The notes under the pieces are model-generated. The model was not told the DNA's origin. It saw nothing but the letters and a program-made list of their open reading frames with translations, and searched no databases. Made by a program: the position numbers and the translations under genes. Shown here one piece after another: positions 49,057 through 53,695 of a DNA stretch of 64,000 nt. Source of the stretch: Bacteroidetes bacterium MedPE-SWsnd-G1. Lineage in GTDB: Bacteria; Bacteroidota; Bacteroidia; Flavobacteriales; Flavobacteriaceae. Positions within the stretch are counted from its first letter, which is position 1, and the number at the start of each line of letters is the position of its first letter. The stretch is from positions 124,001 to 188,000 of the forward strand of contig MPDD01000001.1 of the NCBI GenBank assembly GCA_001874265.1, written 5' to 3'.

Positions 49057-49431
49057 ATGAAACAAGCCTTGTTGGTTTTTATAGGAGGAGGATTTGGAAG
49101 TGTTGCTCGTTTCTTATTGGGTAAGGCGCTGAATAATTCTGGAGACGGAATTCCATACGGAACCTTTTTAGCCAATATCTTGGGGAGTTTACTTATTGGA
49201 TTAATTTTAGGCTTGGCCTTGAAACATGAAGCATTAACGCAAAATCATACCTTGTTGTTAGCAACAGGATTTTGTGGAGGTTTTACCACCTTTTCTACCT
49301 TTGCTTATGAAAACCACGTGTTTTTAAAATCAGGTGATTTTATGAGCTTTGCCGTTTATACAATAGCTAGTTTTATAGTTGGGTTCCTTGCTGTTTTTGC
49401 AGGTATCTATGCCGTTAGATTTTTTGTTTAA
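49057..49431 (+). CDS. crcB: Fluoride channel CrcB/Fluc
   Basis: 124 residues with four membrane helices. Conserved GGGFGSVARFLLG near the N-terminus and the pore-lining GFCGGFTTFSTFAYE near 73-87, with the Asn of the first half present (GTFLANILGS). Works as a dual-topology dimer that exports fluoride. No fluoride riboswitch was found ahead of it. Its last four bases overlap the converging DUF1684 gene. Confidence 0.93.
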   Translation: MKQALLVFIGGGFGSVARFLLGKALNNSGDGIPYGTFLANILGSLLIGLILGLALKHEALTQNHTLLLATGFCGGFTTFSTFAYENHVFLKSGDFMSFAVYTIASFIVGFLAVFAGIYAVRFFV

Positions 49432-50039
49432 TGCTTTTTAAAAGCAAGCACGCCCGCTTTTATTGCTAAATCTAAGTCGTTTTCTCTAGGAGGTATCGGA
49501 CACGAATATTCATCGTTATAAGCGCAATAAGGGTTATACGATTTATTAAAATCTATTACAATAATTTCGCCTTTCGGAATATCAACATCAATATATCTGC
49601 CGCCGTCATAGGTTTCGGCTCCATTTGTTAAGTCGTTAAAAGGAATGAATAAATGATCTGCATATTCTGGGTCTAAAATTAATTCTTGATTTTGATAAAC
49701 TCTTAGTGTATGTTCCTTTCCGCTGTGTGTAAAAGTTGCAATTCCATATTGCGTATATAATGGTTTCCTATCTGTTGTTGTTTGCATTTCAAAAATAGGT
49801 TCGTCTGGGGTTCTCTCAAATGAGGCTTCAATTTTAAAAGATGCATCAATTTCAAAGAATGCCAATTCCTTAAACTTTTTAAAGTCTTTTTTCTTAAGTG
49901 GAGTTGTTTTTAAATCAGAAAATTCAACATTCATCTTGTACCTAAATTGTTCAATTTCTTCTTTGTGAGTCATTGGAGTTTCTTGATTACATCCTGTTAA
50001 TGTTACTAAAAATAAAAGAAGATATATTGTTTTTCTCAT
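49428..50039 (-). CDS. DUF1684 lipoprotein
   Basis: 203 residues. Lipobox LTGC near residue 17. The DUF1684 core is recognised from LFIPFNDLTNGAETYDGGRYIDVD and from FNKSYNPYCAYNDEYSCPIPPREN close to the C-terminus, with conserved Asn, Tyr and Cys residues. Role unknown; relatives are small secreted beta-rich proteins. It is a single gene between crcB and the MFS leader region. Confidence 0.85.
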   Translation of the reverse strand: MRKTIYLLLFLVTLTGCNQETPMTHKEEIEQFRYKMNVEFSDLKTTPLKKKDFKKFKELAFFEIDASFKIEASFERTPDEPIFEMQTTTDRKPLYTQYGIATFTHSGKEHTLRVYQNQELILDPEYADHLFIPFNDLTNGAETYDGGRYIDVDIPKGEIIVIDFNKSYNPYCAYNDEYSCPIPPRENDLDLAIKAGVLAFKKH

Positions 50040-50079
50040 GGGTTGTTCTGATTTGCGTTAAAGGTATTATTTTATTTTG

Positions 50080-50087
50080 TAGTTTTG
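50080..50087 (+). promoter_or_regulatory. -7 box of the MFS leader transcript
   Basis: TAGTTTTG fits TAnnTTTG exactly. The -33 is weak: TTA at 50058-50060 with a 19-base spacer, or TTG at 50053-50055 with 24 bases. Transcription would begin near 50093, 18 bases ahead of the leader peptide. Confidence 0.5.
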
Positions 50088-50110
50088 AAACTTCATAAAA
50101 CAGAATAAGC

Positions 50111-50188
50111 ATGATGCTTTGTACAACCTATAAGAATGTCCATAAGTCGAGTATTAAAAATACTTGCCGGATTTTGTATGTGTTGTAG
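50111..50188 (+). CDS. Candidate leader peptide of the MFS exporter (25 aa)
   Basis: Short frame starting ATG ATG and ending TAG at 50186-50188. It begins MMLCTTYKNVHKSS and ends IKNTCRILYVL. No amino acid is over-represented, unlike the His and Arg leaders. Codons 19-22 contain GCCGGATTT (50166-50174), identical to the 3' arm of the terminator that follows, so the segment can pair over nine bases with the terminator's 5' arm (50220-50228). The layout matches the His attenuator at 2012-2133 and implies that ribosome progress on this frame decides whether the exporter gene is transcribed. Confidence 0.65.
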   Translation: MMLCTTYKNVHKSSIKNTCRILYVL

Positions 50189-50219
50189 TTATTTAAAAAT
50201 AAGATAAATCAATATAATC

Positions 50220-50245
50220 AAATCCGGCCTTGCGCCGGATTTTTT
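50220..50245 (+). terminator. Terminator directly in front of the MFS gene (attenuator)
   Basis: AAATCCGGC (50220-50228) and GCCGGATTT (50234-50242) form a nine-pair perfect stem with a five-base loop and a T-run (50240-50245). It ends 11 bases before the MFS start codon, so without an antitermination event the exporter would hardly be expressed. Confidence 0.88.
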
Positions 50246-50256
50246 AATTTTAGACT

Positions 50257-51453
50257 ATGTTAAAAAGAATGACCGTTTCGTATAGCGATTCATTTAAAGG
50301 ACTTTCGACCGAAGTTTGGTGGTTGGCCTTGATTACGTTAATAAATAGAGCAGGAACAATGGTAATCCCTTTTTTGTCTCTGTATTTGACTGAGCATTTA
50401 AACTTTACACTTGTAGATGTGGGTTGGATCATGTCTGCTTTTGGTGTAGGCTCATTGGTTGGAACTTGGTTTGGCGGATTTTTAACGGATAAGTTCGGTT
50501 ATTATAAAGTGATGGTGTACAGTATTATTGCTACTGGAGTCCTATTTATTGGTTTGCAATACTTAGAAACGTTTGCCATGTTCTGTTTGGGAATATTCAC
50601 GGTTATTTTGGCCGCAGATGTATTTAGACCAGCCATGTTTGTGGCTTTAAGTGCTTATAGCAAACCCGAAAATAAAACTCGGTCTGTAACTTTAATCCGT
50701 TTGGCTATTAATCTTGGGTTTTCTGCAGGGCCGGCTATTGGCGGTATTATTATAACTTCTATGGGGTATGATAAATTATTTTGGATTGATGGAGTGACGT
50801 GTATCTTAGCAGGGATTTTATTGCTTAACGTTTTACATCCTAAAAAGGCACGTATTCTGGATGAGGTGGTGGTAAAGAATCCGGTTTCTGCCTATTCTGA
50901 TGGGAAATTTTGGGTGTTGTTTGTGGCGTTGTGTTTATTCGGAATTGTGTTTTTGCAATACTTTTCTACCATTCCAATTTTTTACAAGCAGTCTCATTTT
51001 TTATCTGAATTTGATATTGGTTTATTGCTTGGAATGAATGGGTTTGTCATATTTATTTTTGAAATGCCACTGATTAAATGGTTAGAGAAATTGAAATACT
51101 CTAAAGTCGATTATATGATTTTTGGAACGGTGTTGTTGGGATTGAGTTTAGTCATTTTAAATGTTAGCGCTTGGACAGGTGTTTTGGTAATTGGTATGTT
51201 ATTGATGTCTTTAGGAGAAATGATAACATTTCCGTTTTCAAACTCCTACGCATTAGACAGAGCAAAGAATGGTAAGCAAGGCCAATATATGGCTTTGTAT
51301 AGCATGTCTTTTTCTGTTTCTCATATTATTGCCCACAATGCCGGAATGCGTTTGGTAGATGGTTATGGTTTTGAAAGTGCCTGGTACATTTTTACAATAA
51401 TTTCAGTAGTTTGTATCTTGTGTTTTATGTATTTATTAAGGCGCTCTAACTAA
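50257..51453 (+). CDS. MFS exporter, drug:proton antiporter type
   Basis: 398 residues with 12 hydrophobic segments. The loop between helices 2 and 3 is GTWFGGFLTDKFGYYKVMV, the MFS signature (G-x-x-x-D-x-x-G-x-K). Helix 5 has GFSAGPAIGGIIITSMGY, similar to the antiporter motif C of exporters. This places it nearest to DHA1-type efflux proteins. It is expressed from behind a terminator and leader peptide (50111-50245), which would fit induction by compounds that slow ribosomes. The substrate is unknown. Confidence 0.88.
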   Translation: MLKRMTVSYSDSFKGLSTEVWWLALITLINRAGTMVIPFLSLYLTEHLNFTLVDVGWIMSAFGVGSLVGTWFGGFLTDKFGYYKVMVYSIIATGVLFIGLQYLETFAMFCLGIFTVILAADVFRPAMFVALSAYSKPENKTRSVTLIRLAINLGFSAGPAIGGIIITSMGYDKLFWIDGVTCILAGILLLNVLHPKKARILDEVVVKNPVSAYSDGKFWVLFVALCLFGIVFLQYFSTIPIFYKQSHFLSEFDIGLLLGMNGFVIFIFEMPLIKWLEKLKYSKVDYMIFGTVLLGLSLVILNVSAWTGVLVIGMLLMSLGEMITFPFSNSYALDRAKNGKQGQYMALYSMSFSVSHIIAHNAGMRLVDGYGFESAWYIFTIISVVCILCFMYLLRRSN

Positions 51454-51471: not shown

Positions 51472-52011
51472 TTAGCGACAAATTTTGCATTCGTCGCGAT
51501 TTTTCATTTCACCGACCAAAACTCCTTTTTCATTCAGTTCATAGCCACAACAGTCCATATAGCCTTCGGCTACTTTTTTACGAGCGCGTTGTATGCGAGA
51601 TTTTACAGTTGGTAAAGCGAGGTTTAATTGATTTGCTATTTCTTGTTGTTTAATCCCTTTTACATCTGCTAGAAAAAGAGGAGTTCTATATTTTTTATCG
51701 AGGTTCATGATATGGCTTAGTAAGCAATCTTTCTCGGTGTGCTCTAACTCTTCGGAATCATCTTCTATTTCAAAAATAGGAGTGTCGCTTTCTAGTTTCG
51801 AGTTTCTGAAATGGTCCAATACGGTATTTCTCGCAATTGAAAACACCCAAGATTTCAATTTAGAAGCATCTTTTAAAGTGTCTAGTTTGGTGTGAACTTT
51901 TAGAAAAGTTTCTTGCGTTAAATCATCTGACAAGGTACGATTTTTAACCTTGCTATAAATAAAGGAAAAGACATCTTTGGAGTACGTATTCCAAACGTGC
52001 TGTGTAGTCAT
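51472..52011 (-). CDS. sigZ: SigZ-type sigma-70 family factor
   Basis: 179 residues from the ATG at 52011 (MTTQHVWNTYSKDVFSFI). A longer frame from 52053 would read through a 12-base hairpin and is less likely. Region 2 (about 8-75, DDLTQETFLKVH, KLKSWVFSIARNTVLDHFR) and region 4 (about 105-155, PLFLADVKGIKQQEIANQLNLALPTVKSRIQRARKKV) are both present. The tail has Cys residues in DCCGYEL and DECKIC, which might bind metal or respond to thiol oxidation. No anti-sigma factor gene is adjacent. Upstream lies a Cys-rich peptide gene on the same strand. Confidence 0.88.
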   Translation of the reverse strand: MTTQHVWNTYSKDVFSFIYSKVKNRTLSDDLTQETFLKVHTKLDTLKDASKLKSWVFSIARNTVLDHFRNSKLESDTPIFEIEDDSEELEHTEKDCLLSHIMNLDKKYRTPLFLADVKGIKQQEIANQLNLALPTVKSRIQRARKKVAEGYMDCCGYELNEKGVLVGEMKNRDECKICR

Positions 52012-52023
52012 AAATAAAATATT

Positions 52024-52060
52024 TTGACAGGTGAATATTGCTTGAATTTTCACCTGTCAA
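52024..52060 (-). promoter_or_regulatory. Hairpin between the Cys-rich peptide gene and sigZ
   Basis: TTGACAGGTGAA (52024-52035) and TTCACCTGTCAA (52049-52060) form a perfect 12-base inverted repeat with a 13-base loop, 12 bases upstream of the sigZ ATG. In the minus-strand transcript it is followed by AT-rich sequence without a clean U-run. It could be a weak terminator, an mRNA processing or stabilising element, or a protein-binding site. Confidence 0.75.
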
Positions 52061-52078: not shown

Positions 52079-52180
52079 TTAACAGTTGCAATTAGAACAT
52101 GAACAATTTTCACAAGTACAGTTTTGACACTGTCCGGTTTTACAAGGTTCACAATTGCATGTACAATTTGTATTTTTCAT
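52079..52180 (-). CDS. Cysteine-rich metallothionein-like peptide (33 aa)
   Basis: Small minus-strand gene starting ATG at 52180 and ending TAA at 52079. Eleven of 33 residues are Cys (6, 8, 10, 13, 18, 21, 23, 26, 28, 31, 33), in C-x-C and C-x-x-C spacings separated by Asn, Thr, Ser, Glu and Gln. It begins MKNTNCTCNCEPCKTG and ends ENCSCSNCNC. This is the pattern of a metal-binding peptide such as a metallothionein, although it does not match a bacterial SmtA sequence. It has no export signal. It lies 67 bases upstream of sigZ on the same strand. Confidence 0.72.
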   Translation of the reverse strand: MKNTNCTCNCEPCKTGQCQNCTCENCSCSNCNC

Positions 52181-52408
52181 GGGTTTTCCTTTTAAATTCA
52201 TACAATAGACGTACAAATTACAAAAAAGATGCATTTAAATATTACTTTTTACTCAATTAAGTAAATATTTGAATTGCAGTTAATAGGTTGAATAGTGCTG
52301 TTCGTTTTTTTATTGAAGTAATCGAACTATAAAAGGTGAAATAGACGCATTTTATCCTTAAAAATTATGGAAAAGTTGCTAATTTGGGAACATCTAAATT
52401 ACTCAAAT

Positions 52409-53086
52409 ATGGATTTTAAAAAGACTTTTCTAATTGTTAGTTTCATACTGTTTAGTACAGCGTTAATAGCGCAAAAAAAGATATCAAAACAAGAACGGAA
52501 AGATGGGTTTGTTTCCTTGTTGAAAGATGGGAATTTAGATCAATGGGTTGGGAATAAAACAGATTATTTTTTAGAAAAAGGAATTTTAAAGGTTCGACCT
52601 GAAAATGGTGGGAGTGGAAATTTATATACTGCAGAAGAGTATGCTAGTTTTATATTAAGATTTGAATTTAAACTAACACCTGGTGCAAATAATGGATTAG
52701 GAGTACATGCGCCGTTAGAAGGGGATGCTGCATATGTGGGAAAAGAATTACAAATTTTAGATAATTCAGCAAAAAAATATGCTGACCTTAAACCGCATCA
52801 ATATCATGGTTCTGTGTATGGAGTTGTTGCAGCAAAAAGAGGGCGTCAAAAGTCAGTAGGGCAATGGAACACACAAGAAGTTGAGGTGCGAGGAAATCAT
52901 TTTAAAATAACATTAAATGGTGAGGTTATAGTTGATGCTGATGTATTAGAGGCGTCAAAAAATGGAACTGTAGATGGGAAAAAGCATCCAGGATTGAAAA
53001 AAAATAAGGGCCATATTGGCTTTTTAGGTCATGGTTCGCCTTTAGAGTTTAGAAATATTAGAATTAAACAATTAACAGATAAATAA
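52409..53086 (+). CDS. Secreted DUF1080 protein
   Basis: 225 residues from the ATG at 52409 (MDFKKTFLIVSFILFSTALIAQ is a good signal peptide). An ATG 42 bases upstream would put a charged stretch before it and is rejected. A single DUF1080 domain follows (FVSLLKDGNLDQWVGN, EEYASFILRFEFKLTPGANNGLGVHAP, ELQILDN, GQWNTQEVEVRGNHFKITLNGEVIVDA). The family hydrolyses 3-keto-glycosides. Nine bases separate it from a second DUF1080 gene, so the two proteins should act together, perhaps on different linkages. Confidence 0.85.
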   Translation: MDFKKTFLIVSFILFSTALIAQKKISKQERKDGFVSLLKDGNLDQWVGNKTDYFLEKGILKVRPENGGSGNLYTAEEYASFILRFEFKLTPGANNGLGVHAPLEGDAAYVGKELQILDNSAKKYADLKPHQYHGSVYGVVAAKRGRQKSVGQWNTQEVEVRGNHFKITLNGEVIVDADVLEASKNGTVDGKKHPGLKKNKGHIGFLGHGSPLEFRNIRIKQLTDK

Positions 53087-53095
53087 AGATTTAAA

Positions 53096-53695
53096 ATGAA
53101 GAAATTAGCCTTAGGAATTGTGTCAATATTACTTTTAATGAGTTGTGCTTCAGACGGAACAACTTCATTGTTTAACGGTGAAAACTTAGATGGTTGGACT
53201 AACTATGGGACAGAGAAATGGTATGTAGAAGATGGATTGTTAGTATGTGAAAGCGGGCCAGATGAGGCATATGGGTATTTGGCAACAAATGAACACTACA
53301 AAGACTTTGTTTTAACCTTGAAATTTAAGCAAGAAGCAAACGGAAATAGTGGAGTTTTTATTCGTTCTACAGTTGAAGGAACAAAAGTTTCTGGATGGCA
53401 AGTGGAAGTTGCTCCAAAAGGAAAACATACAGGAGGCGTATACGAATCCTATGGAAGAGGATGGTTAATTAAGCCAGAAGCAGAAAAAGAAGAGGCTTTA
53501 AAAGTTGGAGAATGGAATGAGATGAAAATCAGAGTAGTGGGTAACGACTTAACATCTTGGTTAAATGGTACAGAAATGGTACATATTTCAGATGAAAAAA
53601 TTGGAGCAGGTGTTGGTTCTATTGCGTTACAAATTCATGATGGTGGAGGAATTAAAGTGAGATGGAAGGATTTAAAAATTAAAGAGATTAAATAA
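53096..53695 (+). CDS. Lipoprotein with DUF1080 domain
   Basis: 199 residues. Lipobox LMSC ends near Cys17. DUF1080 domain covers about 22-198 (TSLFNGENLDGWTNYG, NEHYKDFVLTLKFKQEANGNSGVFIRS, GEWNEMKIRVVGNDLTSWLNG). Second gene of the DUF1080 pair; closer in layout to the first domain of the tandem protein at 18156-19529 than to its neighbour, judging by the GWQVEVAPKGKHTGGVYESYGRGWL segment. No oxidoreductase is adjacent, so C3 oxidation would come from elsewhere. Confidence 0.86.
   Translation: MKKLALGIVSILLLMSCASDGTTSLFNGENLDGWTNYGTEKWYVEDGLLVCESGPDEAYGYLATNEHYKDFVLTLKFKQEANGNSGVFIRSTVEGTKVSGWQVEVAPKGKHTGGVYESYGRGWLIKPEAEKEEALKVGEWNEMKIRVVGNDLTSWLNGTEMVHISDEKIGAGVGSIALQIHDGGGIKVRWKDLKIKEIK

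Follow-up and report, generated by a model that had tools for sequence, protein, structure and literature searches.

A probable ribosome-mediated transcription attenuator preceding an MFS exporter-type gene in Flavobacteriaceae

In a 64,000-nucleotide stretch of flavobacterial DNA (hereafter, the window), a short leader frame, an intrinsic terminator and a competing antiterminator precede a gene of the major facilitator superfamily (MFS). We consider it very likely that they form a ribosome-mediated transcription attenuator of this exporter-type gene. The frame, the terminator, the two-part antiterminator, a promoter-like box and the conservation of these parts are all read from the DNA sequence. 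Stalling of a ribosome within the early half of the frame is the probable inducing event; the nature of the inducer, a translation inhibitor or similar compound that the exporter removes, is inferred, with no function data to support it. The kind of system is known from mef and bmrCD, and this member appears to be new as far as the literature was searched.

Layout of the element

All parts of the element lie on the forward strand. The leader frame (50111–50188) spans 25 codons, encodes the peptide MMLCTTYKNVHKSSIKNTCRILYVL followed by a stop codon, contains a second in-frame ATG at 50114 and has equivalents in relatives. A promoter-like box, TAGTTTTG (50080–50087), is found 23 nt 5′ of the leader start codon and matches TAnnTTTG, which we take to be the consensus of the Bacteroidota −7 promoter box; no further TAnnTTTG occurs on the forward strand of 49900–50300. 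Within the frame, TAT AAG (Tyr7-Lys8, 50129–50134) occupies a site at which the aligned leaders encode Tyr or Cys and the next codon begins with A, and the stall region is proposed here by inference. Local folding predicts a small hairpin inside the frame (50149–50165), directly 5′ of the motif GCCGGATTT (50166–50174), a second copy of the 3′ arm of the terminator that would serve as the outer antiterminator strand. The inner antiterminator helix would be formed by GTGTTG (50180–50185), which ends at the stop codon, and CAATAT (50210–50215). The terminator begins 31 nt past the leader stop codon: its 5′ arm, AAATCCGGC (50220–50228), is common to terminator and antiterminator, and its 3′ arm, again GCCGGATTT (50234–50242), continues into a T run that ends at 50245. 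The T run and the ATG at 50257 of the exporter-type gene (50257–51453, 398 aa) are just 11 bases apart.

The first-pass annotation of this DNA had placed the frame, the copy, both arms and the T run exactly where we find them, and its statement that the terminator ends 11 bases before the exporter start is borne out. It had also named a promoter downstream of 50245 as an observation that would refute regulation by the leader; none fits into the 11 nt available. Upstream of the element lies a divergently oriented gene for a DUF1684 lipoprotein (49428–50039, minus strand). An overlapping frame at 50136–50207 (MSISRVLKILAGFCMCCSYLKIR) was considered and rejected, since over the leader length just 13 of 82 relatives keep one of the two other reading frames open and 5 the other (the first is open by construction).

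The exporter-type gene

The protein matches PF07690 with an E-value of 4e-61, and none of the best 25 of 29 NCBIfam models reaches its cut-off. All seven PDB sequence matches at E ≤ 1e-5 are to NorA. The window protein carries motif C in the form GFSAGPAIGG, and motif C is present in 80 of the 80 best relatives; its pattern, GxxxGPxxGG, presumably marks DHA1-type drug:H+ antiporters. The two features expected of that type, an MFS fold and motif C, are thus both present. A predicted model (pLDDT 86.6) has NorA as its best Foldseek match, and G6PT, DgoT, VMAT, MdfA, LmrP and peptide transporters match as well. Because the fold is thus shared with transporters of sugar phosphates, amines and peptides, neither substrate nor direction of transport is established, and the label ‘exporter’ rests on motif C and the similarity to NorA, with export itself inferred from sequence and a predicted model.

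Conservation in relatives

Searching named genomes with the exporter protein gave 127 relatives, the best 80 of which (61–69% identical) were kept, and the 14 genomes of the window’s genus provided eight full-length homologues, the window included; the remaining matches in those 14 genomes are fragments or distant paralogues. Judging by the names of the 80 relatives, the window belongs in or close to Flavobacteriaceae. A short frame and a terminator are found upstream of the exporter in all 88 members of the combined set. This is the arrangement expected of an attenuator, with a short frame between promoter and structural gene (88/88, the transcription start being unmapped) and an intrinsic terminator between frame and exporter gene. 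The frames measure 23–28 codons save one of 18, and two start with GTG and TTG instead of ATG. One leader (L079) has a longer frame that ends nearer the terminator, and matches the covariance model of the element described below at E 3.2e-12. Two loci under names of other phyla (L016 and L040) are, by inference, probably mis-binned contigs. Of the 88 leaders, 81 have a TAnnTTTG box 17–28 nt ahead of the start codon; among 1672 background windows of 60 nt, 63 contain one.

The frame appears to be maintained as a frame. In the 82 leaders counted (L072 was excluded), the distance from start codon to copy equals 1 modulo 3 in 80, over seven spacings from 49 to 64 nt, and both leaders out of register have a distance of 56; a spacing of 20 or 23 nt from copy to stop codon is found in 77. 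Codons 2–13 display no excess of silent changes (342 silent, 555 replacing), and their mismatch rates by codon position are 0.12, 0.26 and 0.24, so that the whole peptide is not strongly held, and the frame and a few sites are held more so. We take the register as sufficient evidence of selection on the frame, despite the absent silent-change excess. In two further loci (L142 and L161) the frame is cut to 16 codons and stops before the usual copy; a possible pairing copy was seen by eye in a shifted register.

Pairing of terminator and antiterminator

The sequence GCCGGATTT occurs three times on the two strands of the 64 kb, always in the element, and two of these occurrences are the terminator’s own arms. 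The expected number is 0.37, and three occurrences were reached in none of 100 shuffles. Sixteen intrinsic-terminator candidates in the window (12 on the plus and 4 on the minus strand, one place being seen on both) were scored for a pairing copy within 105 nt upstream; the terminator of the exporter leader has the strongest, with a score of 23, followed by 19 for the next. None of 200 shuffles of the upstream region reached the window’s score (p 0.005). Calculated energies are −13.1 kcal/mol for the duplex of copy and 5′ arm and −12.6 kcal/mol for the terminator hairpin, values that are only roughly comparable because one describes a duplex and the other a hairpin.

The copy could be scored in 109 of 126 upstream regions, the other 17 failing a stricter T-run rule. 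It beats shuffles at p ≤ 0.05 in 64 of the 109 and at p ≤ 0.01 in 48. Within the genus, the copy is strong in the window, L082 and L088, and not above shuffles in the other five of eight members (L083, L084, L085, L086 and L087). A mutually exclusive antiterminator overlapping the frame is, hence, supported by pair counts and by shuffles in 64 of 109 regions, and not in those five genus members.

A first alignment comprised 83 leaders, 82 of them distinct. In it, 98.5% of terminator cells are paired, eight of the ten terminator pairs have changes on both sides, and cells with a double change number 53, compared to 8.0 in shuffles. The outer helix, formed by the copy and the terminator 5′ arm, is paired in 88.6% of cells, and the inner helix in 77.3%. 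Taken together, the antiterminator helices are 84.1% paired, against 82.2 ± 0.4% when shuffled and 30–48% when slid out of place; they contain 30 double-change cells versus 8.8 ± 3.3 shuffled (13–40 in slid versions), and their covariation score of 0.187 compares with 0.158 in shuffles and no more than 0.075 in slid versions. The small in-frame hairpin has a mean z of −1.52 over the 83 leaders, 72% of which fall below −1.

A second, more divergent set of 90 loci (89 distinct rows) was aligned with a model that contained only the terminator pairs, after 28 further, weaker matches on the same loci were dropped. This set overlaps the first, since 46 of the 90 loci come from L001–L080, and those rows fit the model by construction. 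Here the outer helix is paired in 75.7% of cells (70.5 ± 0.7% shuffled, 27–51% slid) and has 49 double-change cells (22.9 ± 3.8 shuffled, 13–46 slid), each value being reached by 0 of 300 shuffles; 54 of the 300 attain the observed number of pairs and 102 that of pair types. The inner helix, at 69.7% against 67.3 ± 1.1% shuffled and 32–64% slid, is barely above its background. As slid versions reach 40 and, for the divergent outer helix, 46 double-change cells, that measure alone does not separate the antiterminator. Covariation is strong in the terminator and more modest in the antiterminator. Conservation of frame and copy in relatives had been proposed as the check on the attenuator reading, and both are conserved, as judged by register and pair counts in the flavobacterial leaders; what is kept of the copy is its pairing and not its identity to the terminator arm, relatives often using G-U pairs.

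Folding model and proposed mechanism

Folding was modeled for the RNA up to the terminator loop, and a ribosome was assumed to cover −12 to +16 relative to its P-site codon. When the ribosome sits on codon 8, 95% of 82 leaders have a predicted outer antiterminator helix above 0.5. When it sits at the stop codon, the predicted inner helix drops to 0 and the outer one has a mean of 0.46, exceeding 0.5 in half of the leaders. For the window, the model gives 0.87 (codon 8), 0.86 (free RNA) and 0.55 (stop codon) for the outer helix, and 0.99, 0.99 and 0 for the inner helix. When the full terminator is present it wins in 82 of 82 leaders, so the decision must fall during transcription. The folding model is compatible with stall-induced read-through, though the difference between the states is modest.

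The first-pass annotation held that a ribosome at the stop codon would mask the copy. This is correct only in part: about the last four bases of the copy are covered, together with all of the inner antiterminator strand (50180–50185), which that annotation had overlooked. It was also considered whether a hairpin of the trp type hides the copy when the leader is not translated; such a hairpin is locally predicted, but the antiterminator out-competes it in most leaders and fully in the window, leaving it as a possibility during transcription only.

The proposed switch would operate as follows. Transcription would start just upstream of the short frame. A ribosome moving at normal speed would reach the stop codon, where it would mask the inner strand of the antiterminator along with some of the copy; the terminator hairpin would then form, and RNA polymerase would halt before the exporter. 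A ribosome that stalls before the middle of the frame, as proposed near the conserved Tyr/Cys codon, would leave the copy and the inner strand free to pair with the terminator 5′ arm and the bases before it, allowing the polymerase to continue into the exporter. What is inferred is that the frame is translated, that a ribosome stalls on it, that the response runs in this direction and that read-through depends on both translation and stall.

Leader peptide and alternative explanations

A Tyr or Cys codon is present at the aligned site in 78 of 83 leaders (TAT in 44, TGT in 31, TAC in 2, TGC in 1), and the base that follows it is A in 75. This is the best-conserved site of the frame outside the named helices. 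Inhibition by phenicols and oxazolidinones depends on the preceding residue, and it is a matter of speculation that a Thr or Ile residue preceding Tyr/Cys could favour inhibitors of this sort. A more specific form of the attenuator can be imagined, in which the leader encodes an undescribed, Flavobacteriaceae-wide arrest peptide for sensing a drug or metabolite: a specific ribosome-targeting compound would arrest ribosomes whose nascent chain ends near [T/I]-[Y/C], and a dedicated, old chromosomal exporter would be switched on by antitermination. We put this forward tentatively, as a possibility not far short of an even chance.

An attenuator could also work without any arrest motif or specific drug, as a peptide-independent sensor of translation speed or initiation in which any slowing or absence of ribosomes causes read-through. 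This is a version of the attenuator reading, not exclusive of it, and we regard it as plausible if somewhat doubtful. With no ribosome on the RNA, the antiterminator is predicted above 0.5 in 73% of 82 leaders; the untranslated leader is thus modeled to favour the antiterminator, in the window too, and blocked initiation or a lack of ribosomes may also give read-through. The lack of a silent-change excess in the leader codons points the same way, and a precedent exists in toiL of Escherichia coli, which, according to the part of the report available, answers at least five antibiotic classes (PMC12121999). What a pure speed sensor leaves unexplained is the conserved [T/I][Y/C][K/R]-like site, outside the named helices.

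Less of the evidence accommodates an amino-acid starvation attenuator, in which the ribosome would wait at the Tyr/Cys or Lys/Arg codons when charged tRNA is short. The layout is that of amino-acid attenuators, and 78 of 83 leaders share the Tyr/Cys codon; yet the key codon alternates between TAT and TGT, two different amino acids, and the peptides share no residue run (83 of 88 have none longer than two, and the other five differ, with QQQ, RRR or RRRR). The controlled gene is also of the exporter type and not a biosynthetic operon, and we consider this explanation unlikely.

A protein- or ligand-binding, riboswitch-like RNA in which the frame is incidental would account for a structured, conserved 5′ region without an Rfam match: in the window Rfam matched tRNA only, and a permissive search of seven loci gave six matches, all under the gathering score. 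An incidental frame would not be expected to stay in register with the copy in 80 of 82 leaders across such different spacings, or to end at nearly fixed distances past it, and this makes the riboswitch-like explanation very improbable. Lastly, an ordinary terminator with a chance repeat, conceivable because terminators are common and 7 of 40 mid-strength model matches precede unrelated genes, is contradicted by the conserved frame register, pairing, covariation and shuffle tests and can be dismissed with near certainty.

Distribution of the element

A covariance model of the element, built with terminator pairs only, has matches at E ≤ 0.01 in 160 of 299 genomes of the family (141 of the 248 good ones) and at E ≤ 2.9e-5, by hand count, in 111 of the 299 sampled. 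All 59 strong matches retrieved (E ≤ 2.9e-5) stand before the same exporter, and the best 30 adjoin it in the correct order. In a mid-strength group, 33 of 40 matches precede the exporter: 29 of 29 with E ≤ 2.9e-5, but only 4 of 11 weaker ones. Weak matches to the model are unreliable, as 7 of these 11 precede unrelated genes. Two distant exporters (L112 and L126), each 48% identical to that of the window, have leaders that match the model excellently (E 1.6e-21 and 4.8e-19), so similarity of leader and of exporter do not run in parallel.

In a sample of 345 genomes of the phylum there are 10 matches at E ≤ 0.001, and the seven strongest (E ≤ 4.4e-6) all belong to the family; no match outside the family in these genomes is below E 3.4e-4, and none of six weak matches of the phylum scan (L209–L214) has the exporter beside it. 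An exporter homologue (E ≤ 1e-50) exists in 80 of 296 genomes of the class. Twenty-one loci from other families were examined, restricted to the best matches of the class. Two of them, L182 and L184, from two other families, carry an equally arranged leader of unrelated sequence in front of this exporter (p 0.005 and 0.025); in a third, L176, the layout is seen by eye only (p 0.45), and in the other 18 it was not seen by eye over 270 nt. If the first two are true attenuators of the same layout, the regulatory logic has outlived its sequence. In one genus (g127; loci L190 and L192–L195), the exporter homologue is 44–47% identical and no leader was seen by eye in the preceding 270 nt.

Relation to known attenuators

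In amino-acid attenuators of the trp/his type, the ribosome reads a competing antiterminator and terminator, and the flavobacterial element is alike in this respect. It differs from that type in that its leaders lack the shared run of cognate codons and the gene is an exporter.

A close resemblance in gene and logic is offered by mef(E)/mel of Streptococcus, in which, as far as the accessible part of the source describes it, an MFS exporter is preceded by a short leader peptide, an intrinsic terminator and an anti-attenuator freed by a stalled ribosome (PMC4335068). The leader Mef(E)L has 8 residues (MTASMRLR) and the 5′ region 327 nt (PMC4335068). Judged from the same partial source, a distal repeat past the leader frame and its pairing over a terminator with a U tract are features of mef(E)/mel only, whereas the flavobacterial frames are 23–28 codons long (one of 18) and contain the copy (PMC4335068). 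Furthermore, mef(E)/mel is described there on Gram-positive mobile elements, and the flavobacterial element precedes an orthologous gene across a Bacteroidota family (PMC4335068). No peptide resembling MTASMRLR was found by inspection of the 88 leader peptides.

In the bmrB-bmrCD system of Bacillus subtilis, the source, available in part, similarly reports that translation of a small frame sets read-through into a drug exporter via alternative stem-loops (PMC4191407). However, bmrCD encodes an ABC exporter and its terminator is described inside the bmrB coding region (PMC4191407). The flavobacterial element precedes an MFS gene and its terminator lies beyond the leader stop codon, so the defining BmrB arrangement is not met.

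The first-pass annotation knew of no described Bacteroidota case, which, as far as the literature was searched, holds for attenuators before MFS exporters and not more broadly. The tetQ leader of Bacteroides CTnDOT is a drug-linked translational attenuator (Wang et al. 2005, cited in PMC5418344), alike in its Bacteroidota host and its link to a drug; from the excerpt available, it differs in acting on translation, and on a gene for ribosome protection, where the flavobacterial element would act on the transcription of an exporter (PMC5418344). In Flavobacterium psychrophilum, leader-peptide attenuation has been proposed before amino-acid operons, again according to a partially available source (PMC9723704). 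The literature matches listed included no Bacteroidota attenuator in front of an MFS exporter, most subscription journals being outside the scope of the search.

The element suggests that exporters in Bacteroidota may be switched by transcription attenuation, in more than a third of the family genomes sampled, and genome annotation would gain a new RNA family from it. As the element is short and cis-acting, a single reporter could ask which compounds are sensed through ribosomes, and these compounds could help find the substrate of an otherwise anonymous exporter.

Neighbouring frames

Two features downstream of the exporter gene were seen in passing. A small cysteine-rich frame on the minus strand (52079–52234), ending in MKNTNCTCNCEPCKTGQCQNCTCENCSCSNCNC and metallothionein-like to the eye, immediately precedes the gene for a SigZ-like ECF sigma factor (51472–52053), also on that strand. 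On the plus strand (52367–53695), two adjoining frames of 239 and 199 residues contain the similar stretches DGNLDQW and GENLDGW and, judging by these sequences, are possibly related by duplication.
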